DNA from: a virus
DNA: 25,997 nucleotides
Virus record (IMG/VR): IMGVR_UViG_3300042691_018062
Span: 1-25,997 of that record
Reading direction: 5' to 3' (one strand)
Position 1 is the first letter of the stretch. Each line of letters begins with the position of its first letter. Shown here piece by piece: positions 3,721 to 24,416 of this stretch. Below the pieces are notes generated by a model. The model was not told the origin of the DNA. It worked only from the letters and a program-made list of their open reading frames with translations, and did no database searches. A program made the translations under genes and the position numbers.

Positions 3721-3727
3721 TATTTAG
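3721..3727 (-). promoter_or_regulatory. Candidate late promoter box upstream of gp25
   Basis: On the minus strand the sequence is CTAAATATAC, and its TAA is also the stop codon of the 675-aa gene. It resembles the T4 late promoter element TATAAATA. It sits about 30 bases before the gp25 ATG, which leaves room for a short leader with the AGGAA ribosome binding site. Transcription from it has not been shown, and the motif is short in an AT-rich genome. Confidence 0.4.
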
Positions 3728-5894: not shown

Positions 5895-6072
5895 TTACTA
5901 TCCATAGAAGGTATACGAGAACACCAATACGGAAAATCCATCGGACTATCATTAGTCCCATGAATATTCTAAACCATTTTTTCTGCCACAACCAATCAAA
6001 GCGTTGGTGCAACCAATTTTTGTATTTCTTCACTGTTAGGTCCAGAGCAAAGTAATTCGCGTTGTTTTGCAT
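5890..6072 (-). CDS. Small membrane protein, up to 60 aa
   Basis: This frame ends at 5890 and can start at 6072 (60 aa), which overlaps the end of the Coq4-like gene by 77 bases, or at an internal ATG at 5961 (23 aa). Residues 34-60 form a strongly hydrophobic segment, with FMGLMIVRW in the middle and VLVYLLWIVT at the end, carrying only two arginines. Before it comes a Trp/Lys/Arg-rich stretch (WLWQKKWFR), as in an interfacial membrane anchor. No strong ribosome binding site is visible for either start. It fills the space between the Coq4-like gene and the 48-aa gene. It could be a membrane partner of the Coq4-like protein or a small host-membrane effector. The function is not recognisable, and the true start is uncertain. 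Confidence 0.45.
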   Translation of the reverse strand: MQNNANYFALDLTVKKYKNWLHQRFDWLWQKKWFRIFMGLMIVRWIFRIGVLVYLLWIVT

Positions 6073-7676: not shown

Positions 7677-8152
7677 TATTGCCATCTAAAACCAACTGCT
7701 GCTGTTCCGCTGCCAGGCATGCCGCCGCCGTCAAAATTAAAATAGTCTGGCGGCGAATTAATACGATTAGATATATTTCTAGCACCGTTACCCAAAGCAA
7801 ATCTAATCAGATTATTGATCACATCAAATCCTGGCGCCTCATTGTAATAAACATAGTTAAGCCCTGCAGTAGCGATCGCATCAACTAGATATCCTGGAAC
7901 ATATGTTCTATTATCCATAGAACCAACTGGAATGTATGCAGAAAATCCTGTTGTTGTGCCAAATTTGTTAGTGAATGTTCCACAATTTACAACAGCACCA
8001 TAAGATTTCCATAAATCAGATATGGCTCTTTGCCCACCATAACCTAAACGATCACTAGGCTCTGTTAATGGGCAGTATGATCCTGCGCCTCGCTGCATTA
8101 TCTCAGTGTTTAAATCAGAAAATGCAATTTGTGTTCCATTAGGAGTTGCCAT
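7676..8152 (-). CDS. Fibre-associated structural-type protein, 158 aa, unknown
   Basis: This is a 158-residue protein. Its N-terminus (TQIAFSDLNTEI, residues 7-18) and the segment ISDLWKSYGAVV (44-55) resemble the short N-terminal pattern of many phage tail fibre or adhesin proteins. The middle has aromatic stretches such as GLNYVYYNEAPGF, and the C-terminus is glycine-rich (FDGGGMPGSGTAAVGFRW). No catalytic motif is visible. The ATG at 8152 has GGAG about nine bases upstream and overlaps the previous stop as TAATG. It is likely a virion decoration or fibre-tip component, from context and N-terminal pattern only. Confidence 0.75.
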   Translation of the reverse strand: MATPNGTQIAFSDLNTEIMQRGAGSYCPLTEPSDRLGYGGQRAISDLWKSYGAVVNCGTFTNKFGTTTGFSAYIPVGSMDNRTYVPGYLVDAIATAGLNYVYYNEAPGFDVINNLIRFALGNGARNISNRINSPPDYFNFDGGGMPGSGTAAVGFRWQ

Positions 8153-8490
8153 TATCTATTACTCCAAGGCAACGAATTTTCCTGCAATGATGCGTACTGG
8201 TCTGGCGCATTTTGCACGCGAATTAAATCTGCATCTAATCCTTTTTTAATTGCCCAGTGATCAAGTTTAGATTCTATCCAAGATTTAACTTTGGCTTCGG
8301 TCAAACTGTCATATTCAGTAAAATTTTGCGCATCAACTGAAAATACAAATTCCGTTCCTTTATGCGTGACTTGGTCTACACCGTTATTCGCAGTGTAGTA
8401 CCATTCTACTTGTTTAATGACTTTTTGGAGAGAATTTTCTTCGGTTTTAAATAATAACCGTTCAATTCCCCAGATATAGGTCGTAGACAT
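8152..8490 (-). CDS. Small structural-type protein, 112 aa, paralogue of the 145-aa protein
   Basis: This 112-residue protein shares a clear pattern with the 145-aa protein at 8774-9211: TYxWxIxxL at the start, a central NF...D.LTEA.V..WI segment (here residues about 56-72), and LPW near the end. The two are paralogues separated by the 76-aa gene. Proteins of this type are familiar from marine T4-type phages, but I know no assigned function. The ATG at 8490 is preceded by GGGGA about six bases upstream, and that ribosome binding site is inside the 3' arm of a predicted hairpin (8492-8522). Translation may therefore be regulated, in contrast to its paralogue. Confidence 0.8.
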   Translation of the reverse strand: MSTTYIWGIERLLFKTEENSLQKVIKQVEWYYTANNGVDQVTHKGTEFVFSVDAQNFTEYDSLTEAKVKSWIESKLDHWAIKKGLDADLIRVQNAPDQYASLQENSLPWSNR

Positions 8491-8773: not shown

Positions 8774-9211
8774 TTAAAGGTCTTCAAGAGATACAGGCGC
8801 TGCAGGTGGTGCAGCAGCTGCAGCCATAGCAGCAGCACCGATTGATGCAGCATTAGCAGAAACAGGTGTTGTTGGATCCCATGGCAAGAAGTCAGCGTCA
8901 ACAACTGGATTCTTAACTTGGTTAATTTGCTTCATGATTTGCTCATTAACATGTTGAGCATAACCACCAACAACAATTGATTTAATCCAACCAAGAACAG
9001 TTGCTTCTGTTAGATTGTCCCAATCAATAAAATTGTTAGGATCAATGTCTGATGACACAAATGGTGTGGCTCCATGAAATGTTCCAGAGTTACCATCCGC
9101 ATCAGTTCCAGTGACTTCCCAACGAGTACCAACCACAACATTGTTTAAATTTGCGGATGGGACGTTAGTCTTTTTAAGTCCTGTAATTTTCCAAGTATAA
9201 GTTAAAGCCAT
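8774..9211 (-). CDS. Small structural-type protein, 145 aa, paralogue with Ala-rich tail
   Basis: Residues 1-111 match the 112-aa protein downstream: TYTWKITGLK at the start, NFIDWDNLTEATVLGWIKS in the middle and DFLPWD near residue 110. The protein then carries an extra 33-residue tail that is almost only Ala, Pro, Ser and Gly, ending PVSLEDL. The ATG at 9211 has AGAGGA eight bases upstream. The 47-base leader holds a direct repeat (CTTTCAGA twice, ten bases apart) and a CTAAATA box at 9256-9262. The function is unknown. Position next to the fibre suggests a virion or assembly role. The low-complexity tail could be a flexible linker or a binding peptide. Confidence 0.8.
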   Translation of the reverse strand: MALTYTWKITGLKKTNVPSANLNNVVVGTRWEVTGTDADGNSGTFHGATPFVSSDIDPNNFIDWDNLTEATVLGWIKSIVVGGYAQHVNEQIMKQINQVKNPVVDADFLPWDPTTPVSANAASIGAAAMAAAAAPPAAPVSLEDL

Positions 9212-9255: not shown

Positions 9256-9262
9256 TATTTAG
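9256..9262 (-). promoter_or_regulatory. Candidate late promoter box upstream of the 145-aa gene
   Basis: The minus strand reads GACTAAATACTATATAG, with CTAAATA identical to the box before gp25 and likewise overlapping the upstream stop codon (here of the 133-aa gene). It lies about 45 bases before the ATG at 9211, the longest leader in the operon, which makes it one of the better candidates. Confidence 0.4.
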
Positions 9263-9660
9263 TCGTTTACTGCACCGTCATAATATGATGTGAGTGTTAA
9301 CAAGTGATCGTAACCTTGTTCAACAACGCTCTTTGGCGAATTTATGTCAACACCAAAATTTACCAGAGGTTCAATAGTTATTTCACCCTGGAACAATCCT
9401 GGAGCATCAGTTGGGTATGCAGCCAACACTGCGATTGGTGTTTTTCCAGATTCTCTTGCTTCCTTTGAAGCATAAATGGACACCGCCATTTTAGCATAAT
9501 AACCAGCCTTCCATAAAAACTCTGGAGAGTTTGATGGTCTTGCTCCTGCAGGATCTTTGTCGTCTACTGCTCTTTTAAATGTGTCAATTTTATGAATGAT
9601 ATGGTACGCATTAGGAGCTTCCAATCCATTTTTCAAAGTGTATCCTTTAATTAAAGCCAT
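9259..9660 (-). CDS. Fibre-linked protein, 133 aa, unknown
   Basis: This is a 133-residue protein beginning MALIKGYTLKNGLEAPNAYH. The pattern of a short beta strand, NGLxxxNAYHxI, then IDTFKR is seen at the start of some small proteins coded beside phage tail fibres. I cannot name a family. The rest is mixed alpha/beta, with WKAGYYAKMAVSIYASKEAR near the middle. The ATG at 9660 has a strong AAGGAG nine bases upstream. It overlaps the end of the giant fibre gene by 14 bases, so the ribosome binding site lies inside the fibre's C-terminal coding region. Such tight linkage to an S74 fibre often marks an accessory or tip protein, but this is inference. Confidence 0.75.
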   Translation of the reverse strand: MALIKGYTLKNGLEAPNAYHIIHKIDTFKRAVDDKDPAGARPSNSPEFLWKAGYYAKMAVSIYASKEARESGKTPIAVLAAYPTDAPGLFQGEITIEPLVNFGVDINSPKSVVEQGYDHLLTLTSYYDGAVND

Positions 9661-10024
9661 TACGATTTTTCTCCTTTCGTAGTTCTTCTCTTAAATCTTC
9701 AATTTCATCCTTCAAGTCTTTGATTGCTTGGATTAGATATGGCGTAATCTTATCATAATTGATCGTTAGATAATCGTCAAGTATTTCACCATCAATCTCG
9801 ATTCCCTTCTTAGCAGTCATATTTATCACGACTGCATTCGGAAGAACTTCTTGCGTTTCCTGAGCAATCACGGAAACTTCTTCCGTGCCACCAGTAATTA
9901 CACCGCCAGTAACTTGTTCGGCTTCTTTTTTCCAATTGAAGCGGCTCGGCTTCAATTTGTAGATTAAATCAATACCTTCACCACGAGCAAGTTCTTTGAT
10001 GTTTTCCTTGAGGCGACGATCTGA
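9647..10024 (-). other. S74 intramolecular chaperone domain of the fibre (predicted self-release)
   Basis: The last 125 residues, from S3175, form a peptidase S74 domain. The dyad Ser and Lys are five residues apart in SDRRLKENI, as in the phage endosialidase chaperone, where cleavage occurs at this serine. Downstream parts match the family: LKPSRFNWKKE, VSVIAQETQEVLPNAV, NYDKITPYLIQAIKDL, then a heptad-like coiled coil. Known S74 domains drive trimer folding and are then cut off. Cleavage here is predicted from the intact dyad. Confidence 0.85.
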
Positions 10025-13000
10025 CCAGTAAGCGATGACGTTTCCTGGGAAGTGACCAGTACCGCCAGATACATAGAATCTCCAACCCACAGCATTCCAG
10101 TGAAAGCCATAGGTGTCGGTGTTCATCATCAATGAGGTATTTGCAAAACCAAATTCAATACCACCCCAACCATTTCTTGATCCGTCGATTTTCCAAGAAC
10201 CATAAGAAGCATTATTTGGATAGAAGTGCGCACCGTTTAAACCAGAGTAAATTCCATGATAGCCAGTTAAATTTGTCCAAGTATATTGATAAGCATAGTT
10301 ACTACCACCATTAAACTGCCATACGATACCACTCATATCGTAGTCAGTGTAGAAACGCATACCCTCGTAACTTGGGTTTGCGCCAAATTTAATGCCGACA
10401 TGATATGCAATTCTTAGGTCTGGATATGGGAACCCCCAGCCACCACCTTCTTGGAAGATACGATAAGCGTGACCACCATTACCACTGTTGCCGCCCACAC
10501 CATATGGTTCCCACCAAATTGAGTACAGTCCACCAGCAACTGTAGCAACATTCATTCTCGTTGTGCCATTACCATCAAAATACCATGCTGTATCATGATC
10601 GTAAAAAATCGGACCACGGAGATCGCCAGAAAAATAATTGTAACCATAGTTCCAACGAGTATAACCACCATCCCAATACCAGAGCCAGTTGCCGCGAGAG
10701 TTATCGTGTAGACCGAAGTTGTCGCCAACTGTCGTCATCAATGTCCAGCGTGAACCTGCACCATAACCATACCAACCATTGCGTCCGCCACCATAAGTTG
10801 CTATGTGACCATATGGATTTCCTTCACACTCTGGCGACCAAATTCCGCGACCATAAGATTGGAAATAAAGACCGACGCAACCTTGCGGACGGAACCAATC
10901 ATTAGCATAAGCAGAACTAAATTGCGCGCTGCCTGAACCACTTCCGAAATAATATCCTGTGTTATCGCGATCATAATAGATGTAAGCGCGGAAGTCATTA
11001 CCATATGTGATACGATACAATTCCATATTAGCATTGCCGTATTCAATACGAATCTGCCAGTTACCAGAACTGTTAAGCATACCGAAGCCGCTGCCATCCC
11101 AATAGCCAGTCCAACCACGAGTATCTGACTCGTAGTTTACAAGCATTTGAACGCCGCCATAACTATAACCACCACCAGACATCTTAATGTAGCCGCTGTT
11201 AGAATAGACGTGCATAGCAGATGATTGATTATAGAGACCACGACCAGAAGTATAATTACGCCACCAACCATCGGTGTATGATTCATTTGTATGAATCACA
11301 TTTAATCTGCTAGTTCCATTTGGATCTGAATAGTAACTGCCATCGTTACTATCGTACATAATTGAAGTCCAAATGTCGGTTGAGTTCTCATTCAACCCAT
11401 ACATCATTAACTTACGCCAGCCAGAGAATGTTGACCAAGTGTTGCGGAACCACAATCCAGAGATTGGTCCACCGACCATCTGCCAACCATAACGAGCCGA
11501 GCCGTTGGTGTAGTGATATGCTTGAGTTCCTACCCAGTGTGAACTTCCTGCTGGCTGATTGCCTGGACTTGACCACGAATCAATAAATCCTGAACCCCAG
11601 TCAGCGACTGTGTTCATGTCAACAGTGCCCCAACCGAATGAACCTGTCCAATAATCACGATCAGTTGTAATACTTGGACGCTGCGCATAGTATTGTGCGC
11701 TAGAACGATCTTGTCCTGCTAGACCAATCTGAGCCTTCGAGCGAGTCGTCAATCCTTGCCAGTTTGTGAGGCTGTTAAAGTCAGCATAATATGATGGATC
11801 ATTACGATCAGCAAAAGTTGTTGCCTGAATTTGATTTTCGACATAAACCAGATTTCCAGCATACCAGTTCAAGTAAGTGTGATAACCACCGCGACGAGGG
11901 TCAAGGTGCAAGTTTCCGTTGGTCGTCATTACCTGCGCCCAGTCGCCTGAGTCGCCATTACCACCTACGCGAAGATATGTTCCCCAAGTTGGGTTTGGTC
12001 CATGAGTCCATGCACCACGAATGCGACCAGCATCAAATCCTGCATTGTCGCCATCAAAGAAATATGTGGTATCTACATCATAGAAAATTGGTGCGCGAGC
12101 AGAATATGCTGCTTGCACAAAGTTACCAGATTTACCAATATGGAAAATTTCAGTGCCAAGATCTTCAGTATCATAGAAGCGAATACCGCCATAACCTGGC
12201 TGCGCACCCATACGAATACCAGTGTGCCAGCGAATATCAAGTTTATTATAGTTCCCACCATAATTTTCTTTGTTGGTTCCAATGTAGTAGTTTCCCTGGG
12301 CATCGCTGTCGCCGCCGCCAAACATAAGACGAACGCCTTCGTCAGTGCTATGCGCATTCCAGGCTGGACCAGCACCACCAATCGTGACTAATCTATAGTT
12401 GCTTGGGTTAATATTAACAGCCCAAGAACCAGCTGCACTTAATAAACCAAATCCATTACCATCAAAGTAAACATAACCGCGATTTGATGCACTTCTATCC
12501 TGATAAATCCAACCATTATCAGAACGAGTGTAAATATAAGTTGAATTTTGAGAGAAGATACGAGTATCGTGTGTTTCCCAATAAAAGCCAACATTTCCTT
12601 GCGCACGGAACCAGTTGTCTGCGTAAACACGATGCAACTGTGTGCTTTCTGGTGGATTTACATAGTAACCAGTGCTATCAATATCGTAGAATATTGTGCC
12701 GTAAATTTCGCCACCACCAGCAACACGATAACGCCATGAACTGCCATTATAAAGACCATATCCATATGATGCGCCGCCAGTTACATCAACGCGAACGCCA
12801 TAATCAAATCCAGACTTGTCGACATATACGCCCCAGTCTGAATTACTGCGATCTGAAACCATAACAACAGCATCAGAATTACCAATTGTGTATGGATTTG
12901 ATGAACGATAGAATATCGCTGTGCCATTATCTTGACCACCGACAACAAGAGAACGCATATTACTTGTCGAGTCTGGATCAATATAGAATCCAGTTGATGC

Positions 13001-16000
13001 GCGAGCGTAGAAATTATAACCATAAATGTCGCGACCAGCGTACATGTCATTATTGGTCAAATCCCAATAAACTGGCCAATTGCCGTTTGTTCCTGCCGTC
13101 GTCCAAGATTCTGTATCGGCAGCATTTGCTCTCAATAGATAGAACAGATTGCTATTATTGTGCAACATCGCAACATAGTTATCAGTGTCGCGGAAATAAA
13201 TTGTTGGCGAACTTCCACGAAGAACAAACAAATTACTATCCCAGCGAGTTGCAGTATCATCAATATCATAGTAAAGTGGCGAACGAGTTGAACCATAAAT
13301 TTCTGTGTATGGTCCTGGGTATGATGATAAGGCAGACTGACTGCCGTTGATATTGAATATCAATCTACCAGCAGCTGTTTGATAAAATTCTGCTCCATTA
13401 CCGCCATTATATCCACCTGAGAATTTAATCAATGGCGCAGAAGCTGCTCTAACACGAAGTTGACGATAATCTGTTGGGTGATAGATATCAAGTGCGTATG
13501 TAACATTATCAGCAATGCTACCAGTTCTACCAATAATACTTCTGTTACCTTGCTGGCTTACTTTGATGCACTTCCACCCAGAAATATACGAAGTGCCGCC
13601 ACCAGTGTAATTAAACAATGCTTGTGGTGTGAAATATTTTGTACCAGTTCTAAACTGACCTGTCGCAGAACCAAACCCAGTGATGTAACCAGAGTATTTC
13701 GTCCAAGCACTTGGTCCAGCACCAGGACCGCTATTAGACATTACCCAATAACCAAACGATCCTGGATTGCCACCTAAACTTGAGAACGATTCATTGAAAT
13801 CAATCGATCCCATGTAGTGACCATTGGTTCCAGAGATATTCTTAATCCACACTTCCATGTAGAAGATATCGTCTTGGTCGACTGGGATATATGGGAAACC
13901 AGAACTATAAACGCCACCGACGTTTACGCCGCCAACGATTTGAATTGCGTATCCGCCAGGAGCCGTTGAGTCTGCAACCCAAGAAACTGATGCACTATTA
14001 AAGTATGCTTGTAGTTGGTCGTTAGTCCATGCGCTATCAAACTCAAATACTGTTTCACCAGGAGTGTAGTGACCGATTGGATATGTCGTTGTATTAATTC
14101 TGGCTTGATCGAGCACAATGCGACCAAGTCTGCTATAGTCTTGCGGATTTAAATAATAGCCAGTGCTATCACGATCAACGAATCTTCTTGCTTGTATGTC
14201 TTCGCGAACCAGTGTATTACCGTCGCCGCGAATGATCATGTTCCAATCACCAGCAAGACCACCATCGCGGAACGAAATGTCCTCGCCACCTGATGTGGCG
14301 ATAATTAGATGCGCATCATCAGTGTCTGTTGATTGTAAGTACCCACGAACAGTTCCAGCTGAAGTGTATAATTGAATTTGAGAACCAGCTCTCCATCCCC
14401 ATGTTCCATAAACATTTGCAGCGTTGAGTTCAGATGTACCAGCTGGATCAATAATATATGCGTTATTATTTGTGTCAATTAATCTTGGCGCATAAATGTC
14501 GCCACTGGTGATAAAATTACTTGCAACGTTTAAATTGAACAATACTGATGTTGAATTTGCATCAACATAATAGGCTGTGTTGTCAGAATCAACAAATTGC
14601 GGTGCTCTGAAACTGCCGCTTGTTTGAATTATGCCGCCGTTATCAAAGTTGTCACCAAATACAACACGCTTCCAAGCACCCCATGATGTGCTAGATCCAT
14701 AACGCATCCACAAACGAGCATTATCAGAATATGCGAGTTCTACTGCACCACCACCAGTCCAATCAGTTGTGCTGCCGTATTTTCTCCAATACATGACACC
14801 ATTAAATGATCCGCCATCACTTAATCCATTGGTACTATTTTGCTTAAAGTCCCAACGAATGCCAGAATTGTAGGACTGAGGATCTGTTGCTGCGGCTCTT
14901 GTATCATTACTTGCAATCAAATATAGTGTTGAAACATTGTTTGCGTCAACATAGTTTGCAGTATTGTCGCTATCATAGAATATTGGTGCTCTAAAGCTGT
15001 ATGCGCTGTAAACATACAGGTCATCACCCAAAACATCAAACAATCCAAGCTGAGCAATTGATCCTGTTGCAGCACCATGTCGCCCAATTCTGAAGTCTGC
15101 GCCAGAGGTGTTATTATTATTCGAATCTAGATTAATAAACACTGAGCCATAACTATTAATGCGAATATCATCATCAGCATTACCGCTGGAATTTCTAGAA
15201 CTAATAGAATGCTGAGTTCCATCATCACCATAGAATGTAATAAAATCGCCCATATCAATCATATTAAAGCGATTCGAACTTACAGAAGATACAACAGAAT
15301 TACTTGCTGGATTTATAAAGAACGCAGCATTATCTCTATCGTAAAGAATATTGCCATATCCATTACCAAAATAGAATGTTCCATAAACTTCTGATTCAGT
15401 TGTATTTGCTCTGAACGCCCAACCAAGGTTTTGATTCATCAAACCAAAGTTTGTTTCTGGAGATGCATTATCCCAATACAAATATCCCTTTACTGCTTGA
15501 GCAGTATCAGTTAGCATAATACCGCTATTCGCACGAATACGAAGATAACTTGTATCAGTAGCAAGAATGCGCTGACCCCAAGTTTCCCAGATTACTCCAT
15601 TATTATTCGAGACGCGGAAGTGTCCGCCATTTGCGTAAACATCACCCTTAATGTGTGCTTTATATGCTGGCTCATCAGTGCTAAAGTCGCCAACGCCGAG
15701 ACGGTTTAGGCTGATTGTGACTCCATCGGTTGGCTTCGCTGGATTCGCTACGCTGGCGTCATAACCTGTAGCAATTGTAATTTGTGAGAGTGCATCTTTC
15801 GAGTAGATGTAAAATTCTTGTTCGCCGTCATCATGCTTACGAATACCAGAAGAAGTTGCTGCATCACTACCGAATGTAATATGACCTTCGGTGGCACTGG
15901 CATGCATATTCAATGTGCCAGTCATTGTATCGCCAGTGACATTTACATAACGATTATCCAAATCAGCAACGCTGTTTCCACCAAGGAACTGAGCATTTAG

Positions 16001-19000
16001 ATTGGCAACAACAGTGTTAGAAACAACAATAAGTGGTGCTGTTCCAACTGCGACATTAGAAATTAATCTTGATGCAGTGACATTCGTTCCAAACTGACCT
16101 GTGCCAGTAATCGTGAGCGATGCACCATTGACTGTGCCAGTGACACTTACGCTGTTGCCTGTAAATTGGTTTGCGACGAGACTTGCGGCAGCATTACGAA
16201 TTGCTACAGTGCTTGCTGTATCTGTTAATGAAGTGTTATATCCATCTAACAAGTCAACATTTAAATTAGCAACAACAGTATTTGATACAACTTGAAGTGG
16301 AGCAGTGCCTGTAGCAACAGTTGAAATTAATTGACTATCAGTTCTAACAGCACCACCAGACACATCAACTTTAGTTCCTGGCGTCATTGTTCCAACGCCG
16401 ACATTACCATCTCCACGGAAGATAACTCTATCAGCTGGAGTGTTGTTTAATGTTGCGTTGAAAATGAAACTTGAAGTGCCTTCGCCATTTACACCTAATG
16501 AGCCATCATTTTCTGTGACGACTTTAATACGAGCTTCGTTAAGACCACTGTTTCCATCTTGGTTCTTGAAGACAATAGCTGAACCACCGATACCTGTAAA
16601 GTCAGCGCGATTGGTTTCAATTAAGAGCATATCGGCAACATTCGTTGACGCGATAGTATCTTCAAAGATGTGTAAGCGAGTATTAGGATTTAATGTGCCA
16701 ACGCCAACTGTGCCACCCTTTGACACGACAATAGAATTACCAATCGTTGTTGTCGTTGCAAATTTAGCAACATTGTCTGTGGTGCCTTGAGTAGAAATAC
16801 CAGCACCCTGCAGACCTTGAACACCTTGTGATCCCTGCGCACCATCATTACCTTGAACACCTTGTACGCCTTGTACACCTTGTACTCCCTGAGCACCTTG
16901 AATACCAGCCGTACCTACAGTACCTTGTGCACCAAATATTCCTTGTGTACCTTGCGAGCCTTGAGAACCATTTGTACCATTAAATCCTTGTGCACCTGTT
17001 GCACCTTGATTGCCGTCATTTCCTGCAACACCTTGAGGACCAGTTGCGCCTTGTACACCTTGACGACCTTGAATGCCTTGTGTGCCTGGAGTTCCTGATG
17101 TACCTTGTGTTCCTGCTCCTTGCGTTCCCTGCGTACCGTCGTTGCCTTGAGGACCTTGGATACCTGTTGATCCTTGGAATCCGATACCTGCTGAACCTTG
17201 CACACCATCGCCACCCTGTACACCTTGCGAACCACCTGTTCCTTGTGAACCTTGTAGACCATTTGTACCTTGCGTGCCATCAGATCCTTGAACACCACCT
17301 GTACCCTGCGTTCCTGTTACACCTTGAGTTCCTTGTAATCCTTGGATACCTTGAATACCAATGCTTCCCTGCACACCCGTTGAGCCTTGAGAACCTGTTA
17401 GACCAGTTGTACCTTGTACACCTATATCTCCTTGTGTGCCCTGCGACCCGCCTGTTCCTTGAACTCCCTGAACTCCTTGCGGACCAATAGGACCTTGCGA
17501 ACCAAGAGTACCGTCAACACCCTGGGTGCCTTGCGTTCCTTGAGTGCCAAATGTTCCTTGTGTTCCAATTTCACCCTGAGTGCCTTGTGTACCTGTAGTT
17601 CCTTGAACACCTTGAGTGCCTTGCGTTCCGAATACACCTTGCGTTCCTTGTGTGCCTTGCGTTCCTGTTGTGCCTTGAGATCCTGTGTCTCCCTTGTCAC
17701 CCGTTCTTACGAAGGTAATGATGACATTTGTGTTATTAGGAAGAGCAGTTATACCATTAAGATATGCCGAAGGAACAGAAAAGTATCCACTCTGATATGC
17801 ATGGAATCCATTAACATTAAAGAATGCAAACTCAATGACATTAGCGGTGTTTGCAACTTTAAATGTGCCTTTGACTGTAGATGTAGAGTCATCAATCGTA
17901 TCAAGATATGCACTTACATTAACATTCGCGCCATCAAGTTGCGAAATATAAAGTCTTGAAACGCTTGCCCAGTTAGTATTATCAAATCTTAGATAACCAT
18001 TTCCTGGATCGGTGTTTGCTGTGCTTGTGCTGTACACATAATCAAACGAAGCACCACCGAACTCACCCTGCTCACCAACAATGCCCTGTGTTCCTTGAGA
18101 ACCAGTTGTACCCTGCGAACCTTGAGTTCCTTGTGTGCCTTGAGTGCCTTGTGCACCATCTTCGCCTTGCACTCCCTGCGTGCCTTGTGTGCCCAATACA
18201 CCTTGAATACCTTGTGTTCCTTGAACACCAATTTCACCTTGAACACCTTGTGTCCCTTGAGTGCCTTGTGTACCTGTAATGCCCTGCACACCTTGTGTGC
18301 CTATCGTGCCTTGAGATCCTTGTGTACCAAGTGTTCCTTGAGTGCCAGTAGTGCCTTGTGCACCACCTTGACCTTGAATTCCTTGTGCGCCATCTTCACC
18401 TTGTACACCCTGCGAACCTTGTGTACCATCTAAACCTTGTGTTCCAGTTTGTCCTTGGACACCTTGTGAGCCAGTTGTTCCTTGAACGCCTTGAGAACCT
18501 TGTGTACCATTTAAACCTTGTGCGCCTTCGTCGCCTTGAATACCAACAGTTCCCTGCGCTCCTTGAGCACCTTGTGATCCTTGAAGACCATTCGTGCCTT
18601 GTGTACCCAAGTCACCTTGAATACCTGTGATGCCCTGCACACCTTGTGGACCAACCCCGCCTTGTACGCCTTGGTCACCCTCAGAGCCTTGAACACCAGT
18701 TAAACCTTGTGTTCCTATAAATCCTTGTATGCCTTGTGAACCTTGTAGACCAAGAGCACCCTGTGTTCCTTGAACGCCAGTTTCACCCTGCGCTCCCATA
18801 ATACCTTGGATGCCTTGTACACCCTGCGCACCAACCTCGCCTTGCGATCCTTGAATGCCCAATACACCTTGAATACCTGTCGTTCCTTGTGGACCTGCGC
18901 CAGTTGGTCCTTGAGGACCTTGTGGACCATTAGATGAACCTTGCGCACCTTGAGTGCCATCAACGCCTTGTAGTCCTGGTCCACCGCCACCGCCGCCACC

Positions 19001-19546
19001 TCCTCCTCCAATAGAGTAGAAGTAAACATTCGTCATACCATTTGCGTTATTTGAAACAGCAACAGTAACACTTGATGTGTTAATAAAGTTTAATTGGCTG
19101 GTAAGTTTTAAACTTCCATTATTTGCAGAAGTGAAGAAAGTAGTTCCAACACCAGCAAGACCCTGAACACCTTGCGGACCTGCATTACCATTTGATCCAG
19201 CTGGACCACTTGGACCGAAATCGCCTTGTATACCTGTTGTTCCTTGAACACCTTGGATTGATGGCGAAGACTCAATAAGCGTAGTGCCATTTGAAATGAC
19301 TTCTGTAGAAGCAATGAACACATTATTAACTTCGAAACCATCTTCTTCACGATTTAAAGCAGATTCATCAACCTCTTGGTCAATGCCTGATGTGATAAAA
19401 TCTAAATTGCCAGTTTCGTAGGCTTCTGTAACTGCTTGTTCTAGAAGTGTGACTGTTGTATTAGCGTCTACTGCATTCGCAAACGCATTTGCTGTCGGTG
19501 TGATTGCCGATATCGAGTCATCTATGCAATTATTAGCTGTTGCCAT
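9647..19546 (-). CDS. Giant collagen-like tail fibre with C-terminal S74 self-cleaving chaperone
   Basis: At 3299 residues it takes up over a third of the window. Residues 1-97 are a non-repetitive N-terminus, probably the baseplate attachment. Collagen-like Gly-X-Y blocks follow at about 98-134, 190-497 and 616-916, with Gln very common in the third position (TQGTQG, VQGVQG). The first two are separated by a beta-rich insert and a run of ten glycines (180-189), and the last two by a globular insert (498-615). Residues 920-1400 hold modules such as NTRLHIFED and two copies of TAPLxVVSNTVVANLN. Residues about 1400-3000 carry some 13 copies of a YD.DNT.YYVDPN.TS-like module among Gly/Trp/Tyr-rich beta segments. 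The end is a peptidase S74 chaperone with SDRRLK (S3175 and K3180), then a coiled coil (3270-3293). It is probably a trimeric receptor-binding fibre. It starts three bases after gp5. Confidence 0.93.
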   Translation of the reverse strand: MATANNCIDDSISAITPTANAFANAVDANTTVTLLEQAVTEAYETGNLDFITSGIDQEVDESALNREEDGFEVNNVFIASTEVISNGTTLIESSPSIQGVQGTTGIQGDFGPSGPAGSNGNAGPQGVQGLAGVGTTFFTSANNGSLKLTSQLNFINTSSVTVAVSNNANGMTNVYFYSIGGGGGGGGGGPGLQGVDGTQGAQGSSNGPQGPQGPTGAGPQGTTGIQGVLGIQGSQGEVGAQGVQGIQGIMGAQGETGVQGTQGALGLQGSQGIQGFIGTQGLTGVQGSEGDQGVQGGVGPQGVQGITGIQGDLGTQGTNGLQGSQGAQGAQGTVGIQGDEGAQGLNGTQGSQGVQGTTGSQGVQGQTGTQGLDGTQGSQGVQGEDGAQGIQGQGGAQGTTGTQGTLGTQGSQGTIGTQGVQGITGTQGTQGTQGVQGEIGVQGTQGIQGVLGTQGTQGVQGEDGAQGTQGTQGTQGSQGTTGSQGTQGIVGEQGEFGGASFDYVYSTSTANTDPGNGYLRFDNTNWASVSRLYISQLDGANVNVSAYLDTIDDSTSTVKGTFKVANTANVIEFAFFNVNGFHAYQSGYFSVPSAYLNGITALPNNTNVIITFVRTGDKGDTGSQGTTGTQGTQGTQGVFGTQGTQGVQGTTGTQGTQGEIGTQGTFGTQGTQGTQGVDGTLGSQGPIGPQGVQGVQGTGGSQGTQGDIGVQGTTGLTGSQGSTGVQGSIGIQGIQGLQGTQGVTGTQGTGGVQGSDGTQGTNGLQGSQGTGGSQGVQGGDGVQGSAGIGFQGSTGIQGPQGNDGTQGTQGAGTQGTSGTPGTQGIQGRQGVQGATGPQGVAGNDGNQGATGAQGFNGTNGSQGSQGTQGIFGAQGTVGTAGIQGAQGVQGVQGVQGVQGNDGAQGSQGVQGLQGAGISTQGTTDNVAKFATTTTIGNSIVVSKGGTVGVGTLNPNTRLHIFEDTIASTNVADMLLIETNRADFTGIGGSAIVFKNQDGNSGLNEARIKVVTENDGSLGVNGEGTSSFIFNATLNNTPADRVIFRGDGNVGVGTMTPGTKVDVSGGAVRTDSQLISTVATGTAPLQVVSNTVVANLNVDLLDGYNTSLTDTASTVAIRNAAASLVANQFTGNSVSVTGTVNGASLTITGTGQFGTNVTASRLISNVAVGTAPLIVVSNTVVANLNAQFLGGNSVADLDNRYVNVTGDTMTGTLNMHASATEGHITFGSDAATSSGIRKHDDGEQEFYIYSKDALSQITIATGYDASVANPAKPTDGVTISLNRLGVGDFSTDEPAYKAHIKGDVYANGGHFRVSNNNGVIWETWGQRILATDTSYLRIRANSGIMLTDTAQAVKGYLYWDNASPETNFGLMNQNLGWAFRANTTESEVYGTFYFGNGYGNILYDRDNAAFFINPASNSVVSSVSSNRFNMIDMGDFITFYGDDGTQHSISSRNSSGNADDDIRINSYGSVFINLDSNNNNTSGADFRIGRHGAATGSIAQLGLFDVLGDDLYVYSAYSFRAPIFYDSDNTANYVDANNVSTLYLIASNDTRAAATDPQSYNSGIRWDFKQNSTNGLSDGGSFNGVMYWRKYGSTTDWTGGGAVELAYSDNARLWMRYGSSTSWGAWKRVVFGDNFDNGGIIQTSGSFRAPQFVDSDNTAYYVDANSTSVLFNLNVASNFITSGDIYAPRLIDTNNNAYIIDPAGTSELNAANVYGTWGWRAGSQIQLYTSAGTVRGYLQSTDTDDAHLIIATSGGEDISFRDGGLAGDWNMIIRGDGNTLVREDIQARRFVDRDSTGYYLNPQDYSRLGRIVLDQARINTTTYPIGHYTPGETVFEFDSAWTNDQLQAYFNSASVSWVADSTAPGGYAIQIVGGVNVGGVYSSGFPYIPVDQDDIFYMEVWIKNISGTNGHYMGSIDFNESFSSLGGNPGSFGYWVMSNSGPGAGPSAWTKYSGYITGFGSATGQFRTGTKYFTPQALFNYTGGGTSYISGWKCIKVSQQGNRSIIGRTGSIADNVTYALDIYHPTDYRQLRVRAASAPLIKFSGGYNGGNGAEFYQTAAGRLIFNINGSQSALSSYPGPYTEIYGSTRSPLYYDIDDTATRWDSNLFVLRGSSPTIYFRDTDNYVAMLHNNSNLFYLLRANAADTESWTTAGTNGNWPVYWDLTNNDMYAGRDIYGYNFYARASTGFYIDPDSTSNMRSLVVGGQDNGTAIFYRSSNPYTIGNSDAVVMVSDRSNSDWGVYVDKSGFDYGVRVDVTGGASYGYGLYNGSSWRYRVAGGGEIYGTIFYDIDSTGYYVNPPESTQLHRVYADNWFRAQGNVGFYWETHDTRIFSQNSTYIYTRSDNGWIYQDRSASNRGYVYFDGNGFGLLSAAGSWAVNINPSNYRLVTIGGAGPAWNAHSTDEGVRLMFGGGDSDAQGNYYIGTNKENYGGNYNKLDIRWHTGIRMGAQPGYGGIRFYDTEDLGTEIFHIGKSGNFVQAAYSARAPIFYDVDTTYFFDGDNAGFDAGRIRGAWTHGPNPTWGTYLRVGGNGDSGDWAQVMTTNGNLHLDPRRGGYHTYLNWYAGNLVYVENQIQATTFADRNDPSYYADFNSLTNWQGLTTRSKAQIGLAGQDRSSAQYYAQRPSITTDRDYWTGSFGWGTVDMNTVADWGSGFIDSWSSPGNQPAGSSHWVGTQAYHYTNGSARYGWQMVGGPISGLWFRNTWSTFSGWRKLMMYGLNENSTDIWTSIMYDSNDGSYYSDPNGTSRLNVIHTNESYTDGWWRNYTSGRGLYNQSSAMHVYSNSGYIKMSGGGYSYGGVQMLVNYESDTRGWTGYWDGSGFGMLNSSGNWQIRIEYGNANMELYRITYGNDFRAYIYYDRDNTGYYFGSGSGSAQFSSAYANDWFRPQGCVGLYFQSYGRGIWSPECEGNPYGHIATYGGGRNGWYGYGAGSRWTLMTTVGDNFGLHDNSRGNWLWYWDGGYTRWNYGYNYFSGDLRGPIFYDHDTAWYFDGNGTTRMNVATVAGGLYSIWWEPYGVGGNSGNGGHAYRIFQEGGGWGFPYPDLRIAYHVGIKFGANPSYEGMRFYTDYDMSGIVWQFNGGSNYAYQYTWTNLTGYHGIYSGLNGAHFYPNNASYGSWKIDGSRNGWGGIEFGFANTSLMMNTDTYGFHWNAVGWRFYVSGGTGHFPGNVIAYWSDRRLKENIKELARGEGIDLIYKLKPSRFNWKKEAEQVTGGVITGGTEEVSVIAQETQEVLPNAVVINMTAKKGIEIDGEILDDYLTINYDKITPYLIQAIKDLKDEIEDLREELRKEKNRNGFN
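10555..15350 (-). repeat. About 13 degenerate YYVDPN-type modules in the fibre shaft
   Basis: Short related segments recur, each ending a longer beta-rich unit. Examples are FYDSDNTANYVDANNVSTL, FVDSDNTAYYVDANSTSVL, FVDRDSTGYYLNPQDYSRL, FYDIDSTGYYVNPPESTQL, MYDSNDGSYYSDPNGTSRL and FYDHDTAWYFDGNGTTRM. Spacing varies from about 40 to 330 residues. Several of the larger units between them are also alike (for example NWFRAQGNVGFYWE and DWFRPQGCVGLYFQ). They are degenerate at the DNA level, so the duplication is old or under strong selection. Confidence 0.75.
16799..17701 (-). repeat. Collagen-like block 3 of the fibre
   Basis: This stretch codes for about 300 residues of mostly uninterrupted Gly-X-Y (residues 616-916), starting GDKGDTGSQG and ending LQGAGI, with small breaks such as GAGTQG and GIGFQG. 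At the DNA level it is a degenerate 9-base repeat. It joins the globular insert to the NVAKFATTTTIGNS module. Confidence 0.9.
18056..18979 (-). repeat. Collagen-like block 2 of the fibre
   Basis: This stretch codes for about 308 residues of Gly-X-Y (residues 190-497), dominated by TQG, VQG, IQG and SQG triplets, and begins right after the ten-glycine run. Proline is rare and Gln and Thr are common, as in bacterial and phage collagen-like proteins that lack hydroxyproline. Confidence 0.9.
18980..19009 (-). repeat. Ten-glycine run in the fibre
   Basis: Residues 180-189 are ten consecutive glycines coded by mixed GGN codons, between a beta-rich insert and collagen-like block 2. It is probably a flexible hinge. 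Mixed codons make replication slippage less likely than in a pure repeat. Confidence 0.9.
19145..19255 (-). repeat. Collagen-like block 1 of the fibre
   Basis: This stretch codes for about 37 residues of Gly-X-Y (residues 98-134), including DFGPSGPAGSNGNAGPQG. It is richer in proline than the two later blocks. It follows the N-terminal attachment region. Confidence 0.85.
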
Positions 19547-19549
19547 TCG

Positions 19550-21133
19550 TTAATCTGCTGTTCCTTGATTTTGTAATCGTATTTTATCTTTTTCCAAAAA
19601 TCCCATACTGTCTGTTGGCTCTTTCTTAAATGTTGGTTTCGTAGGACGATATTTAACCACTGGCGGATTTAATTTTTTCGCACGACCCGCATCATCTGGC
19701 CAACTTGGACTAAATGATACGGAAGGCAATATATTAGTAACAGCACTGTTAAATGTTGATAACAAAGTTTCAGTCCAAAAGTTAGGACCGCCAACCACTA
19801 CACCACTATTTAACGGAGTTGGTGGAGTTCCTAATTCTATTCCTTGGGATTTTAATGCAGCTAATAATATGGGACTTGGTATGTTTGGTGTCGAATTGAG
19901 TGAAGTGACGCCACCAGAATGAAGTCCTGCAGTATAGCCACCATACAACCTTAAATGCCCTTCTGAGCGAACATTTACGATACCCAATGCAGAAACATTT
20001 GCTCGAGAAGAACCATGTAAATCTAAATTCTTTTGCGCAGTAATTTTAACATTATATCCGCTGATATTAATATCACCGCCAGATTCTAAGCGAAGCCCAT
20101 TACACTGCACAACAAGTTCACCATTAATTTTTAAGAACATATCTGATTGCACAGTTTGGTCTTTTGCGCCATTAATATAGGTGCGCTCATTGCCCATAAT
20201 AATATTGTACTTATCTTTAAATGACTTTTCTTTGATAGAGCCTGATGGTAAGAATTCAATTGTTGAGCCAGTGCGATGAGATAACTGCACACGCTCATAG
20301 TCTGGTGTGTCATCCATTTCAAAGGCATGTCCAGATTCAGTTTCTTGAACATGATTGAATGGATACTTGGCATTATATGACGGAAATGGTTCACTCCACA
20401 CTGCTTGGATTCTTCGCTTCTTAAATGATTTTGGATTCTTACTAACTTCTGTTTCTTTTCCAGTTTTAGGATCTTTAACTTTATCTTTTTCTTCGTAACT
20501 TTTTTCTTGAAATTTTGCGCTGGTAATATTTGTAATTCTATTTTTGCGCTGAAAGTCAATAGCAGTTCCTGAAATAGAACGAGAACGAACACCTAATGAT
20601 GCTCCAGTATTTGCACTCTCAATTCTATTTGGACGAGCTAGACGACTAACTGTTGGTTCATTTAAGCGGTCAGGATATCTTTTAGCAAAATCGTCCGTGA
20701 TCGCAGGTCCAGCAGCATTAATTTGAACTTTAGATTCAGCAACCTTTCTGGGGAATAGTGGATTTGTGTTAAGTGCCTTTTGCTCATTGGTATATGGGTC
20801 AGTGAATCCATTGTTTGACCCGAGTTGTTCTTCTGGGATACCAGGAACAGTTCCCATAATGATTGGATACTTACCTTCCTTACCATCAGCAAAAAATCCG
20901 AATACAAGAGTTCCTTCAGCTGGTGGCTGAACTGCATTTCCACCATAAGGAACAACTGGATGAGCCCACGGCAAATCATCCACAGGAATATCAATCTTGT
21001 TATCACTGTGCCATCCGAATGCACGAACTTTACAACGTCCAAGATTGAGTGGGTCTAATCGGTTTTCTACGACACCGAACCACCAAACGAAATTGTTTAA
21101 CCCCATAAAATCGGGTGTGTCATTTTCAATCAT
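19550..21133 (-). CDS. 5: Baseplate hub/spike protein gp5-like, without visible lysozyme domain
   Basis: This is a 527-residue protein (T4 gp5 is 575). Residues 12-97 form the OB-fold type domain, with FVWWFGVVENRLDPLNLGRC, PPAEGTLVFGFF and KYPIIMGTVPG. Residues 258-300 match the VgrG/gp5 core (HVQETESGHAFEMDDTPDYE and LSHRTGSTIEFLPSGS). Repetitive strands of the needle follow at about 305-410, with NGELVVQCNG and SGGDINISGYNVKITAQ. The middle, 100-255, where T4 gp5 carries its lysozyme, is a charged low-complexity linker (KSYEEKDKVKDPKTGKE) with no lysozyme motif. Residues 410-527 are an extra proline- and lysine-rich tail. It acts as the trimeric central spike with the gp27-like protein just upstream (one-base gap). 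The start is the ATG at 21133. Confidence 0.9.
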   Translation of the reverse strand: MIENDTPDFMGLNNFVWWFGVVENRLDPLNLGRCKVRAFGWHSDNKIDIPVDDLPWAHPVVPYGGNAVQPPAEGTLVFGFFADGKEGKYPIIMGTVPGIPEEQLGSNNGFTDPYTNEQKALNTNPLFPRKVAESKVQINAAGPAITDDFAKRYPDRLNEPTVSRLARPNRIESANTGASLGVRSRSISGTAIDFQRKNRITNITSAKFQEKSYEEKDKVKDPKTGKETEVSKNPKSFKKRRIQAVWSEPFPSYNAKYPFNHVQETESGHAFEMDDTPDYERVQLSHRTGSTIEFLPSGSIKEKSFKDKYNIIMGNERTYINGAKDQTVQSDMFLKINGELVVQCNGLRLESGGDINISGYNVKITAQKNLDLHGSSRANVSALGIVNVRSEGHLRLYGGYTAGLHSGGVTSLNSTPNIPSPILLAALKSQGIELGTPPTPLNSGVVVGGPNFWTETLLSTFNSAVTNILPSVSFSPSWPDDAGRAKKLNPPVVKYRPTKPTFKKEPTDSMGFLEKDKIRLQNQGTAD

Positions 21134-21134
21134 A

Positions 21135-22487
21135 TTAAGACGCTACCGCTTTTTTATACTCTTGATTGTTACCTGTTGCACCACCATACGCTGCTCTAGA
21201 AGAATTTTTACACAATTCAAGTGCAGTTTCGTAACCTTCTGCTTCAGCAAAGGTATGTCGAACTGCAGTAATTAAATATTTTCCTGATTGGTATGGATCA
21301 AGCATTCTTTCGTTAGGATCTTCCTGCGTGAACCCTGGTAATTTAAAGTCTACTACAAACCCTACAGTGTAATTTGGATTTCCTGGTACAGTGCATCGCA
21401 ATTTAGTATTATTTAATATTGCTAACTGCATCTCTCGTTGCATCAAAACCTTTTCAATATTGGTATTTTGCACGCGAATACCTCTATCTAAAAAGTATTG
21501 AGAGTTGGTTTGATCATAATTAGTCAGCGCATACTTAATATGAGTCCCATATTCATCATATACTGTTTTACCATCTCTGTTTGTTGCAAACCCCACAGGA
21601 AGTCTTTTTTCAAGAAGTGAACTATCGGCGCCTCTATTGGTTAAAGAGTTTGTGATGGTAGTATACTTTTGTCGAATTAAATCTAAAGTGCGTAGAGTTC
21701 CAGAAAATGCAGGTTTTTTAGTTGATGCCAGCATATCAAATGAATTATCAAATACAAACTTCATCATTTCATTTGTATTTTGTTGTGCTGAGTTATTCTC
21801 ATCATTGTACATCTTCGCCGTACTGTATTTTAATTCAGCAATTGGATTTTGACTCATTAATTTTTCAAGAGACTTAAAGTTAAATCCTTGGTTGTTCTCA
21901 TAGAATAAAAATGGGGATCCTTGAAAACCGTGAGCATATTTCATAATCATTTCAATTGCTTCGAATGGCTTTTGCTGTGTAACTACAAACTCATTGAGTC
22001 CAAGAGAATCTTCAAAGCAGTCTAATTTCAGTTTAGATGGATTAATTTTTAAGTATCTCTTTAAAATTGAGATAATATATGCTGCAGCCGATTCATTTTT
22101 AAATGTGGTTGATATGGTTTGCTGATTCGAGAAGATCATTTCTTCTGAGCAAAAATGCAAAACATATATTTGACTTTGATTTCTTTCGCTAGGTTGTCTG
22201 CCAGTCGATTTATAAATTCTAAAAGTTTTTAAGTAACTTGTCTCATCTCCTGGCTTTTTAAATTTAATTCTAATATACTCAGTACCATTAAATCCTATTT
22301 GAGAATATAAATTAATTGCATCTGTAATTTGAATATATCCAGTTACAACTGGAGAGTATATGTTTTCAAAAATAGAAAGAACATCGAACTGGAATGTGAT
22401 GTTTTCAATTTTACCAGAAGGACTTATAATCTCAATTTTTTCAATTAGATTATCCTTCGCACTTCTGGCGGTGCGAGTATCACTCAT
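21135..22487 (-). CDS. 27: Baseplate hub protein, gp27-like
   Basis: This 450-residue protein is somewhat longer than T4 gp27 (391). It shows the pattern of the gp27 / late-control-D hub family: an N-terminal beta domain (FDVLSIFENIYSPVVTGYIQ near residue 34), then PFEAIEMIMKYAHGFQGSPF with LFYENNQGFNFKSLEKLM near 172-210, and near the end SGKYLITAVRHTFAEAEGYE followed by ALELCKNSS. In T4, a gp27 trimer forms the cup that joins the tail tube to the gp5 spike, and the two genes lie next to each other here too. The ATG overlaps the gp53 stop as ATGA. Assignment rests on pattern and position, because gp27 proteins diverge strongly. Confidence 0.8.
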   Translation of the reverse strand: MSDTRTARSAKDNLIEKIEIISPSGKIENITFQFDVLSIFENIYSPVVTGYIQITDAINLYSQIGFNGTEYIRIKFKKPGDETSYLKTFRIYKSTGRQPSERNQSQIYVLHFCSEEMIFSNQQTISTTFKNESAAAYIISILKRYLKINPSKLKLDCFEDSLGLNEFVVTQQKPFEAIEMIMKYAHGFQGSPFLFYENNQGFNFKSLEKLMSQNPIAELKYSTAKMYNDENNSAQQNTNEMMKFVFDNSFDMLASTKKPAFSGTLRTLDLIRQKYTTITNSLTNRGADSSLLEKRLPVGFATNRDGKTVYDEYGTHIKYALTNYDQTNSQYFLDRGIRVQNTNIEKVLMQREMQLAILNNTKLRCTVPGNPNYTVGFVVDFKLPGFTQEDPNERMLDPYQSGKYLITAVRHTFAEAEGYETALELCKNSSRAAYGGATGNNQEYKKAVAS

Positions 22488-23203
22488 GATCGATTACCGA
22501 GCATTCTATTTAATTCGGAAGATAAAGGTTCTAAGTATTCTTGTTTTAGTAGTTTAATTTCTCTTTTGTTCTCATTTAACTCAATTTCATAATCGTAAAT
22601 GCTTATAGGCTTTACTCGTTCAACAATCTGTAAAGTTGCAGTAGCATTAGCTGAGTTGGCAGTATTTTGCCCAGAATTATTGGCTTTAAAATAGATCGTG
22701 TTAGAAGAGTTGTGGGGATACACATATGCAACTGTTGGCGTATTTGCAAGCGTTATTAATGCATTATCTTTATAACTATATTGTTGTAGAGTTATGATTG
22801 TATTCTTAACATTTGTTGTTGTAATTCCAGCTTCGTTTAAAGTTGAGGTTGTTTCTAACACATAGTGGTGTACATTATCATACGCCTGTTCAATTCCAGT
22901 ATATCCATACTTTTTTAGAATAATACTTTCTAGCGCATTAATAGGTAATGGGAAATCAAAGTATGGATCTTTAAGATTATTGATGAGAATAATTGCCCAA
23001 TGATACTCTACATCACCATATGCTTTGTAGGCAACAATTTCTGGTGTGTCTCCATCCTGTAGTTGATATTTTGTGTATGCAGAAACAGAATTTATAATTT
23101 TACTATTAAATCGAACTCTAGATAAAACATCTGTTACTGCAACTGTTGAGTTGGCAACTAAATCAAAACTGTACAGTTTTTTAGGAAATTTATTAAAAAA
23201 CAT
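22484..23203 (-). CDS. 53: Baseplate wedge protein gp53
   Basis: The 239-residue protein has the gp53 hallmark N-terminus: FFNKFPKKLYSFD at residues 2-14, VTDVLSRVRFNSKI at about 23-36, and YQLQDGDTPEIVAYKAYGD followed by VEYHWAIILINNLKDPYFD at about 46-83. T4 gp53 is 196 residues. The extra length comes from a Thr/Asn-rich insert around 110-195 before a C-terminal helix (NENKREIKLLKQEYLEPLSS). gp53 caps the wedge by binding gp25 and gp6 and joins wedge to hub. The ATG at 23203 has AGGTAA upstream and follows the gp48-like gene by four bases. Confidence 0.92.
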   Translation of the reverse strand: MFFNKFPKKLYSFDLVANSTVAVTDVLSRVRFNSKIINSVSAYTKYQLQDGDTPEIVAYKAYGDVEYHWAIILINNLKDPYFDFPLPINALESIILKKYGYTGIEQAYDNVHHYVLETTSTLNEAGITTTNVKNTIITLQQYSYKDNALITLANTPTVAYVYPHNSSNTIYFKANNSGQNTANSANATATLQIVERVKPISIYDYEIELNENKREIKLLKQEYLEPLSSELNRMLGNRS

Positions 23204-23207
23204 TTAA

Positions 23208-24416
23208 TTACCTATAATTACCTGAAGACTTACCGAAATCGCTTCGCGAAAGAATTGATGTTTCTGTAAAGTTTAACTGTAGAGAAATTTGTGCTGGGTA
23301 ACCATCTGAGTGCGTAACATACCCATTCGGCGTATAGTCTACTGCAACAGAATTTAACACACATTTTTTTGTTTTAATTAATGATGTGTTCGTTTTGTTC
23401 CCATGAAAAAAAGTAATTTCAAATTGCGCAGGTGGGATAAAATATCGCCCAGATACGCCTGCTGGAATTTCTGGTGCTGCATAATATTTTAATGCATGTA
23501 AAATCCCAGTATTAATGCTTGTCGCGAACAATGCATCGGCGTCCCTTTTATTTTTAGGCGTTAATTTAAAGTCTAAAATAAATTTACGAAGACCTGTGCC
23601 TTGAAACATCATTTCTAATTGCGGATTAAGTGCTAACCCCGTTGTTCCGAAAAATAACACTCTTTCAGCACCCTCGCCGAGACCAGGAACCTGACGAGCC
23701 AAACTTGTAGCCAGTTCCAATGCATACATTGATGCGCCAGCTGTACTCACGTCGCTGCCTTTTGTGACCCCATATGCTTGGGCTAAAAGTCCTGGCACGC
23801 CTAATGCCTGAGTTAGACCAGTTTCTAGAAATAAATGATCATATGAAACACCAATATTATCTGGCATTGGTAAAATGATGTATTTTACATTATTATTTGT
23901 ATTTCTACGAAGACTAAAATTTGCAAGTCGACTTTTTAACGCTTCACCAGCTCCACTTATGTTTACGCCGAGGGAACTTTGTACTGAGTCATTTATGAAT
24001 CCAGTAAATTGATCCGTTAATCCTAACGAATCGGCGGCACCGATAGCGCCACCACCCAATGCACTACCTGCAGTACCAACACCTAATTGCGCTAATACCG
24101 ATGAACCAATAATCGCTTTCCCAACTGGACTGGTTATGGCATTGTAACCCTCAATCAATCCTTGCCCAAGATCTCTTGTGATACCCGAATCTTCGCCCTG
24201 CTCATTTGCTGGCAATCCACTGGCGTCGCGTTTAATTTCACTAATTGCGAGCATCACATAAGGATATCCTTGCTGCTCAGCCTCTGATGTTCTATCTTTG
24301 TTCGAATCAATATCTCTTGGGAACGAAAGGTATTTACGACCTACTGCAGATTCAACATCTTGTAATTCTTCTTCTAGTGCCGTTGCAGTGACATTTTGTT
24401 CTGCATTTTCTGTCAT
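23208..24416 (-). CDS. 48: Baseplate tail-tube cap protein, gp48-like
   Basis: This is a 402-residue protein (T4 gp48 is 364). The C-terminal half fits the gp48/gp54 tube-initiator pattern: FQGTGLRKFILDFKLTPKNK at 271-290, RYFIPPAQFEITFFHG at 324-339, CVLNSVAVDYTPNGY at 352-366, HSDGYPAQISLQLNFTETSI at 369-388. The N-terminal half has an unusual Gly/Ala-rich stretch (about 100-135). In T4, gp48 and gp54 sit on the hub and template the first tube ring. The gp48 rather than gp54 label is chosen by gene context and is less certain than the family. The ATG at 24416 has AGGA eight bases upstream. It is the first gene of the leftward operon and is divergent from gp4. Confidence 0.8.
   Translation of the reverse strand: MTENAEQNVTATALEEELQDVESAVGRKYLSFPRDIDSNKDRTSEAEQQGYPYVMLAISEIKRDASGLPANEQGEDSGITRDLGQGLIEGYNAITSPVGKAIIGSSVLAQLGVGTAGSALGGGAIGAADSLGLTDQFTGFINDSVQSSLGVNISGAGEALKSRLANFSLRRNTNNNVKYIILPMPDNIGVSYDHLFLETGLTQALGVPGLLAQAYGVTKGSDVSTAGASMYALELATSLARQVPGLGEGAERVLFFGTTGLALNPQLEMMFQGTGLRKFILDFKLTPKNKRDADALFATSINTGILHALKYYAAPEIPAGVSGRYFIPPAQFEITFFHGNKTNTSLIKTKKCVLNSVAVDYTPNGYVTHSDGYPAQISLQLNFTETSILSRSDFGKSSGNYR

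Follow-up and report, generated by a model that had tools for sequence, protein, structure and literature searches.

A very long phage attachment fibre with a collagen-like stalk and a C-terminal Peptidase_S74 domain, encoded within a T4-like baseplate operon

How might a phage build an attachment fibre on a collagen-like stalk that is nearly devoid of proline? The question is raised by virus record IMGVR_UViG_3300042691_018062, a partial genome (26-kb fragment) whose full 25,997 bases are called the window here, and which carries an open reading frame (ORF) of 3299 residues on its minus strand (9647-19546, start ATG at 19546). The ORF encodes a very long attachment fibre of a recognisable and common phage-fibre kind, in a virus of aquatic bacteria. 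The protein is probably an adsorption fibre made of three identical chains, from a T4-like (Kyanoviridae-type) myophage; it would combine a collagen stalk with a distal receptor-binding part and a Peptidase_S74 (S74) chaperone that is shed. Its size is large though not extreme, and its architecture has already been described. A preliminary description of the window had placed a phage tail fibre with a collagen-like stalk at this ORF. The position and length were correct, the strand is minus, and the assignment is supported by baseplate-operon context, PHROG tail-fibre matches and the C-terminal S74 domain. The account of the collagen-like part also stands, but about 72% of the protein had been left out, most importantly the S74 domain and residues 917-3174.

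As judged by comparison with a full-length homologue in locus L070 (IMG/VR 3300035670_000345; 3288 residues, 77% identity), the reading frame is real and under purifying selection. The nonsynonymous divergence (dN) is 0.17 and the synonymous divergence (dS) about 1.3 (1.33 overall), giving a dN/dS well below 1. Chance origin or a wrong-strand ORF is ruled out by shuffled sequences, Pfam, dN/dS and the existence of the homologue.

Collagen-like blocks, distal region and chaperone

Gly-X-Y repeats total about 215 triplets (about 645 residues) in three blocks within residues 99-916, in agreement with the three blocks of about 640 residues, ten-Gly hinge (residues 180-189) and two inserts of the preliminary description. 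The runs span residues 99-134 (12 triplets) in block 1, 191-217 (about 8, with one interruption) and 218-499 (94) in block 2, and 616-789 (58), 789-812 (8) and 812-916 (35) in block 3. A 45-residue insert plus the ten Gly separates blocks 1 and 2, and a 116-residue insert separates blocks 2 and 3; the label 'beta-rich' earlier given to these inserts is plausible. The longest run of 94 triplets compares with at most 7 in 200 shuffles of the fibre protein, and the Pfam collagen family (PF01391) matches six stretches with 247 bits, above its cut-off.

At Y, 61% of the residues are Gln, while Pro makes up only 2.4% of X and Y together, which bears out the Gln-dominated third position and rare Pro noted before. 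Charged residues make up 6.8%, and the dominant triplets are GTQ, GVQ, GSQ, GIQ and GAQ. Lys and Arg together number only 8 across residues 99-916. A straight triple helix over all 645 residues, at 0.286-0.29 nm each, would measure about 185 nm. The earlier arithmetic is therefore correct, provided that the Pro-poor helix is folded; it ignored, however, the distal 2260 or so residues. T4 fibres follow a rule of thumb of 0.054-0.068 nm per residue, and at such T4/T5-fibre-like rises the distal 2258 residues would add roughly 120-150 nm.

The distal region (residues 917-3174) carries about 13 FYDxDNTxYYxDP-type motifs and matched no solved structure by sequence. The C-terminus belongs to the Peptidase_S74 family, with PF13884 matching residues 3175-3239 at 49 bits (curated cut-off 22; E = 7e-13). 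A profile built from nine homologues matches the MYRF chaperone (7dc3, E = 4e-12) and the distal subunit of a long tail fibre (6f45, E = 1e-9) in the PDB. The segment AYW-SDRRLKEN is invariant in these nine homologues (51-77% identity) and contains a Ser-x4-Lys dyad, S3175-D-R-R-L-K3180. Ser1264, the cleavage residue of T5 pb1, and its activating Lys1269 are likewise five residues apart (PMC4690869). Because the dyad has this spacing, the segment is invariant and the S74 profile matches, self-cleavage before Ser3175, with Lys3180 as partner, is predicted.

Conservation of block lengths

The preliminary description had proposed comparing block lengths among relatives. L070 keeps both the 94- and the 58-triplet block at exactly equal length. 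Ungapped and in register, the two proteins are 72% identical over the first and 76% over the second, versus 49-57% at shifts of 3-9 residues. The dS of these blocks is 1.46 and 1.16, respectively, so that synonymous sites are near saturation. The Gly hinge, ten residues long in the window, has only five in the homologue, and toward the end of block 3 the two proteins differ by small insertions and deletions. In L025, a fragment, block 1 is kept at 12 triplets. From one full-length pair and this fragment, the two main block lengths look constrained. Searches for further collagen-bearing close homologues, using insert 2 and residues 921-1400 as queries, returned the L070 contig only.

Identity to L070 is 27% in the N-terminal 98 residues, the least conserved part, and 67-85% downstream. 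The shift falls where the collagen begins, and may mark an exchange point or a fast-evolving docking part. Although L025 and L070 carry a homologue of these 98 residues, tblastn with them found none in 50,697 phage records or in viral contigs. We also considered whether the fibre had recently been transferred horizontally between the lineages of the window and L070. Its dS is slightly below that of the flanking tail genes, but synonymous sites are near saturation, and such a transfer is not claimed.

Proposed assembly and alternative explanations

In the favoured reading, the N-terminal 98 or so residues would dock on the baseplate or tail, and the collagen-like blocks would make up the proximal stalk, long and thin, with the Gly-rich hinge and the two inserts as its joints or clamps. 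The distal region of about 2260 residues would bear the receptor-binding surface. The S74 domain would gather three chains and nucleate folding, which would start with the distal shaft and proceed through the collagen toward the N-terminus, and the domain would cleave itself off before Ser3175. The fibre gene forms a cassette with a downstream gene for a 133-residue protein and two DUF7936 genes; the former, and possibly the DUF7936 proteins, may supply an assembly chaperone or tip protein.

Several observations weigh against this reading. The collagen contains little Pro and carries almost no charge. Stability of E. coli prophage collagen has been credited partly to Pro at about half of the X positions, plus charged residues (PMC3368898), and the fibre has neither the Pro-rich X positions nor the many charges of that type, so this explanation is inapplicable here. 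AlphaFold2 models are too poor to use, with a mean predicted local distance difference test score (pLDDT) of 47.5 for insert 2 and 33 for residues 2968-3299, and none supports a trimer or a triple helix. The N-terminus is the most divergent part, whereas docking on a conserved baseplate would lead one to expect conservation. Finally, the 133-residue protein has no detectable relative among known chaperones or adhesins.

The composition also bears on a different view of the stalk, in which the Gly-X-Gln stretches would stay largely unfolded at host temperature and serve as a flexible tether, the distal part works alone and the reach is far below 185 nm or so. The Pro and charge content is indeed far from that of stable phage collagen (PMC3368898), and the length of the Gly hinge varies freely, from 10 to 5. 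However, Gly recurs without fault at every third position over 94 and 58 triplets, and the two blocks match those of L070 in length and register at a dS of about 1.2-1.5; such strictness would be superfluous in a disordered spacer. Moreover, the virion model of PR772 shows a short collagen-like motif of P5 as a triple helix (PMC6750898). A tether therefore seems to us unlikely.

Another possibility concerns function rather than folding. The protein could be a baseplate-attached structural whisker or side fibre that binds no receptor, with the host recognised by another fibre. It is encoded within the baseplate operon, and not next to connector genes as in loci L009 and L014, and other fibres may exist, the record being a 26-kb fragment. 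Nevertheless, relatives carry the cassette in the vicinity of head-tail connector genes, within or next to the pelagimyophage host-recognition cluster (PMC7029224), and the S74-processed end of the T5 fibre is receptor-binding (PMC4690869). We consider a purely structural role quite improbable. Gly at every third position without Pro also fits polyglycine-II packing, but it is most improbable that each chain packs by itself into polyglycine-II bundles and no collagen helix of three chains is formed, since such bundles need turns every few triplets while the 94- and 58-triplet runs keep their Gly spacing unbroken, and the C-terminal S74 chaperone points to a trimer.

The stalk poses a problem of wider interest. 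Judged by what has been learned from animal and E. coli prophage collagen, near-Pro-free collagen of low charge should be only weakly stable, yet Gly-X-Gln stalks are frequent in environmental viral contigs. We tentatively propose, while regarding it as rather doubtful, that Pro-poor collagen with Gln at Y is a common environmental phage stalk that forms a stable triple helix without Pro or salt bridges, clamped by the inserts and the S74-nucleated shaft, and that its lengths are selected as rulers. If Gly-X-Gln blocks fold, they would amount to naturally occurring triple helices free of imino acids, on which ideas about collagen stability could be tried, and would give phages a simple means to set fibre reach.

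Occurrence of Gly-X-Gln stalks and mosaic relatives

A scan of viral contigs for eight consecutive Gly-X-Gln codon triplets found at least 120 stretches, 118 with at least 10 triplets. Among the 118 matches listed, at least 75 have 50% or more Gln at Y and 5% or less Pro, at least 20 contain at least 217 triplets, at least 16 include a run of at least 94, and at least 7 have an S74-like motif. Collagen as long as that of the fibre, or longer, thus occurs in many other viral contigs. Far more extreme than the window fibre is contig L139 (IMGVR_UViG_3300036770_004472), where an ORF of 2128 residues, open at both ends, counts no fewer than 596 triplets of Gly-X-Gln type. Up to 240 of these follow one another; Gln fills 96% of the Y positions, and Pro is absent.

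The same C-terminus is joined to different proximal halves in proteins of 3437 residues without collagen (L007, L009, L010), of 2082 residues with 86 triplets (L012, L014) and of 1255 residues without collagen (L018-L021). Because these distant homologues have shorter collagen or none, collagen reach is no fixed requirement of the fibre family. That such a reach helps to find sparse hosts, as first suggested, is speculation. Downstream of the fibre, most of these relatives carry the gene for the 133-residue protein and DUF7936 genes. Fibre and companion genes are found together at differing genome positions, with varied proximal stalks on one conserved distal end.

Insert 2 is a portable domain. 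By tblastn, the segment of residues 494-614 matches Actinomycetia phage DSL-LC01, where it sits between collagen runs, and Pelagibacter phage HTVC010P, whose tail protein has two copies just upstream of a short collagen run. DSL-LC01 (locus L086) has three adjacent collagen-like genes, one of which holds 195 triplets in 14 runs with repeated short interruptions; the insert-2-type domain lies in its neighbour.

Similarity to known fibres

The combination of a collagen stalk with a C-terminal S74 domain is already published (PMC12220804) and is present in the cultured Synechococcus phage S-CAM9. The tail fibre of S-CAM9 (NC_031922 BOW85_gp222, 1830 residues) has a collagen block, a distal domain and a C-terminal S74 domain (NSDRRLKDNI), and is followed by a homologue of the 133-residue protein with the same 14-bp overlap. 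However, its collagen is of GQK/GPT type, shorter and near the C-terminus, and its N-terminal part is long and different. A 3161-residue protein of Synechococcus phage DSL-LC03 (WJZ47903) resembles the window fibre in size, in a homologous distal region with FYDxDNTxYY motifs, in an S74-like end and in a DUF7936 gene after the fibre, but lacks a long collagen stalk and differs in its proximal half.

Polinton-like virus fibres combine collagen repeats with a C-terminal S74 domain in up to 3.9 thousand residues (PMC12220804), the same architecture as here, although these are viruses of protists and their fibres attach to the penton instead of the tail. The E. coli prophage side-tail fibres EPclA and EPclB, which have been shown to be trimeric and triple-helical (PMC3368898), share with the window fibre, known from its sequence, a collagen stalk, globular ends and a hinge. 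In contrast, they have other trimerisation domains and no S74 domain, and the collagen of the listed EPcl example is 111 residues long, charged, and has Pro at about 50% of X. The chaperones of T5 pb1, K1F endosialidase and MYRF share the C-terminal domain with the self-cleavage Ser/Lys spacing, but these proteins have no collagen stalk and are otherwise unrelated in sequence.

Genomic context

Coordinates of the fibre parts and neighbouring genes are given in Table 1. By PHROG and Pfam, the minus strand of the window encodes a T4-like tail region. It holds gp54, gp53, gp5, gp25 and gp6 in the order of a T4-like (Kyanoviridae-type) baseplate operon, with gp25, gp6 and a wedge protein following a 675-residue gene. 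This operon is syntenic with 32 loci and with phages HTVC008M and Melnitz. The nearest cultured relatives of gp6 are in Methylophilales phage Melnitz and Pelagibacter phages HTVC008M and Mosig (38-40% identity over 70%); identity to cyanophages is about 30% over 93% of the protein.

Table 1. Features of the fibre and its neighbours in the window.
Feature	Position	Strand	Evidence or remark
Fibre gene, 3299 residues	9647..19546	-	ORF; 3288-residue homologue in L070
N-terminal 98 residues, probable virion-docking part	19253..19546	-	65% identical in L025, 27% in L070
Collagen block 1, residues 99-134, 12 triplets	19145..19252	-	Repeat scan and Pfam
Insert 1, residues 135-179	19010..19144	-	Sequence
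Ten-Gly run, residues 180-189	18980..19009	-	Sequence; five Gly in L070
Collagen block 2, residues 191-499, including unbroken 94 triplets at 218-499	18050..18976	-	Repeat scan; same 94 in L070
Insert 2, residues 500-615, portable domain	17702..18049	-	tblastn to DSL-LC01, HTVC010P
Collagen block 3, residues 616-916, 58 + 8 + 35 triplets	16799..17701	-	Repeat scan
Distal region, residues 917-3174	10025..16798	-	About 13 FYDxDNTxYYxDP-type motifs
Peptidase_S74 intramolecular chaperone, residues 3175-3299	9650..10024	-	Pfam PF13884; homologues; PDB profile matches
gp54 tube cap	23208..24416	-	PHROG/Pfam
gp53	22484..23203	-	PHROG/Pfam
Tail protein	21135..22487	-	PHROG/Pfam
gp5-like baseplate hub	19550..21133	-	phrog_430, E = 2e-68; Gp5_OB; 3-bp gap upstream of fibre
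133-residue protein, candidate assembly/tip partner	9259..9660	-	Overlaps fibre stop by 14 bp; recurs downstream of fibre in relatives
DUF7936 protein 1	8774..9211	-	PF25590, E = 9e-17; after fibre in relatives and DSL-LC03
DUF7936 protein 2	8152..8490	-	PF25590, E = 8e-12; relatives
675-residue gene	3724..5751	-	ORF; beyond the small-gene group after fibre

The cassette sits between gp5 and the 675-residue gene, which lie about 13.5-13.8 kb apart in both the window and L070, whose operon order is the same. In contrast, the 32 loci that share these two genes have them closely adjoining, with no fibre between. In L009 and L014, head-tail connector genes lie a few kb beyond the cassette, a position corresponding to the region before the neck gene gp14 where the host-recognition cluster of pelagimyophages has been described (PMC7029224). 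The placement in the window is not unprecedented, because a plastic region splits the baseplate module in some cyanomyophages (PMC7029224).

The gene for the 133-residue protein follows the fibre in L070, L002, L004, L009, L012/L014, L015 and the cultured S-CAM9. The recurrence of its 14-bp overlap with the fibre in the window, L070 and S-CAM9 suggests coupled production. The protein matched no Pfam or PHROG family, and its profile gave no convincing match in the PDB. By these searches it shows no sequence membership among the T4 gp38/Tfa chaperones, whose arrangement it resembles in position and overlap alone. The DUF7936 proteins, for which profile searches of the PDB gave no convincing solved relative, appear from gene order to be companions of S74 fibres. 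The two in the window are 29% identical to each other, and two to three copies also trail the fibre in L009, L014 and L020.

The baseplate operon also contains a gene for a Coq4-like protein (5996-6835, minus strand; PF05019, E = 7e-14), for which tblastn found no match in the 50,697 phage records. L070 has a cysteine-dioxygenase-like protein (phrog_4786) at this position, and because the two differ, a slot for exchanged metabolic genes looks likely.

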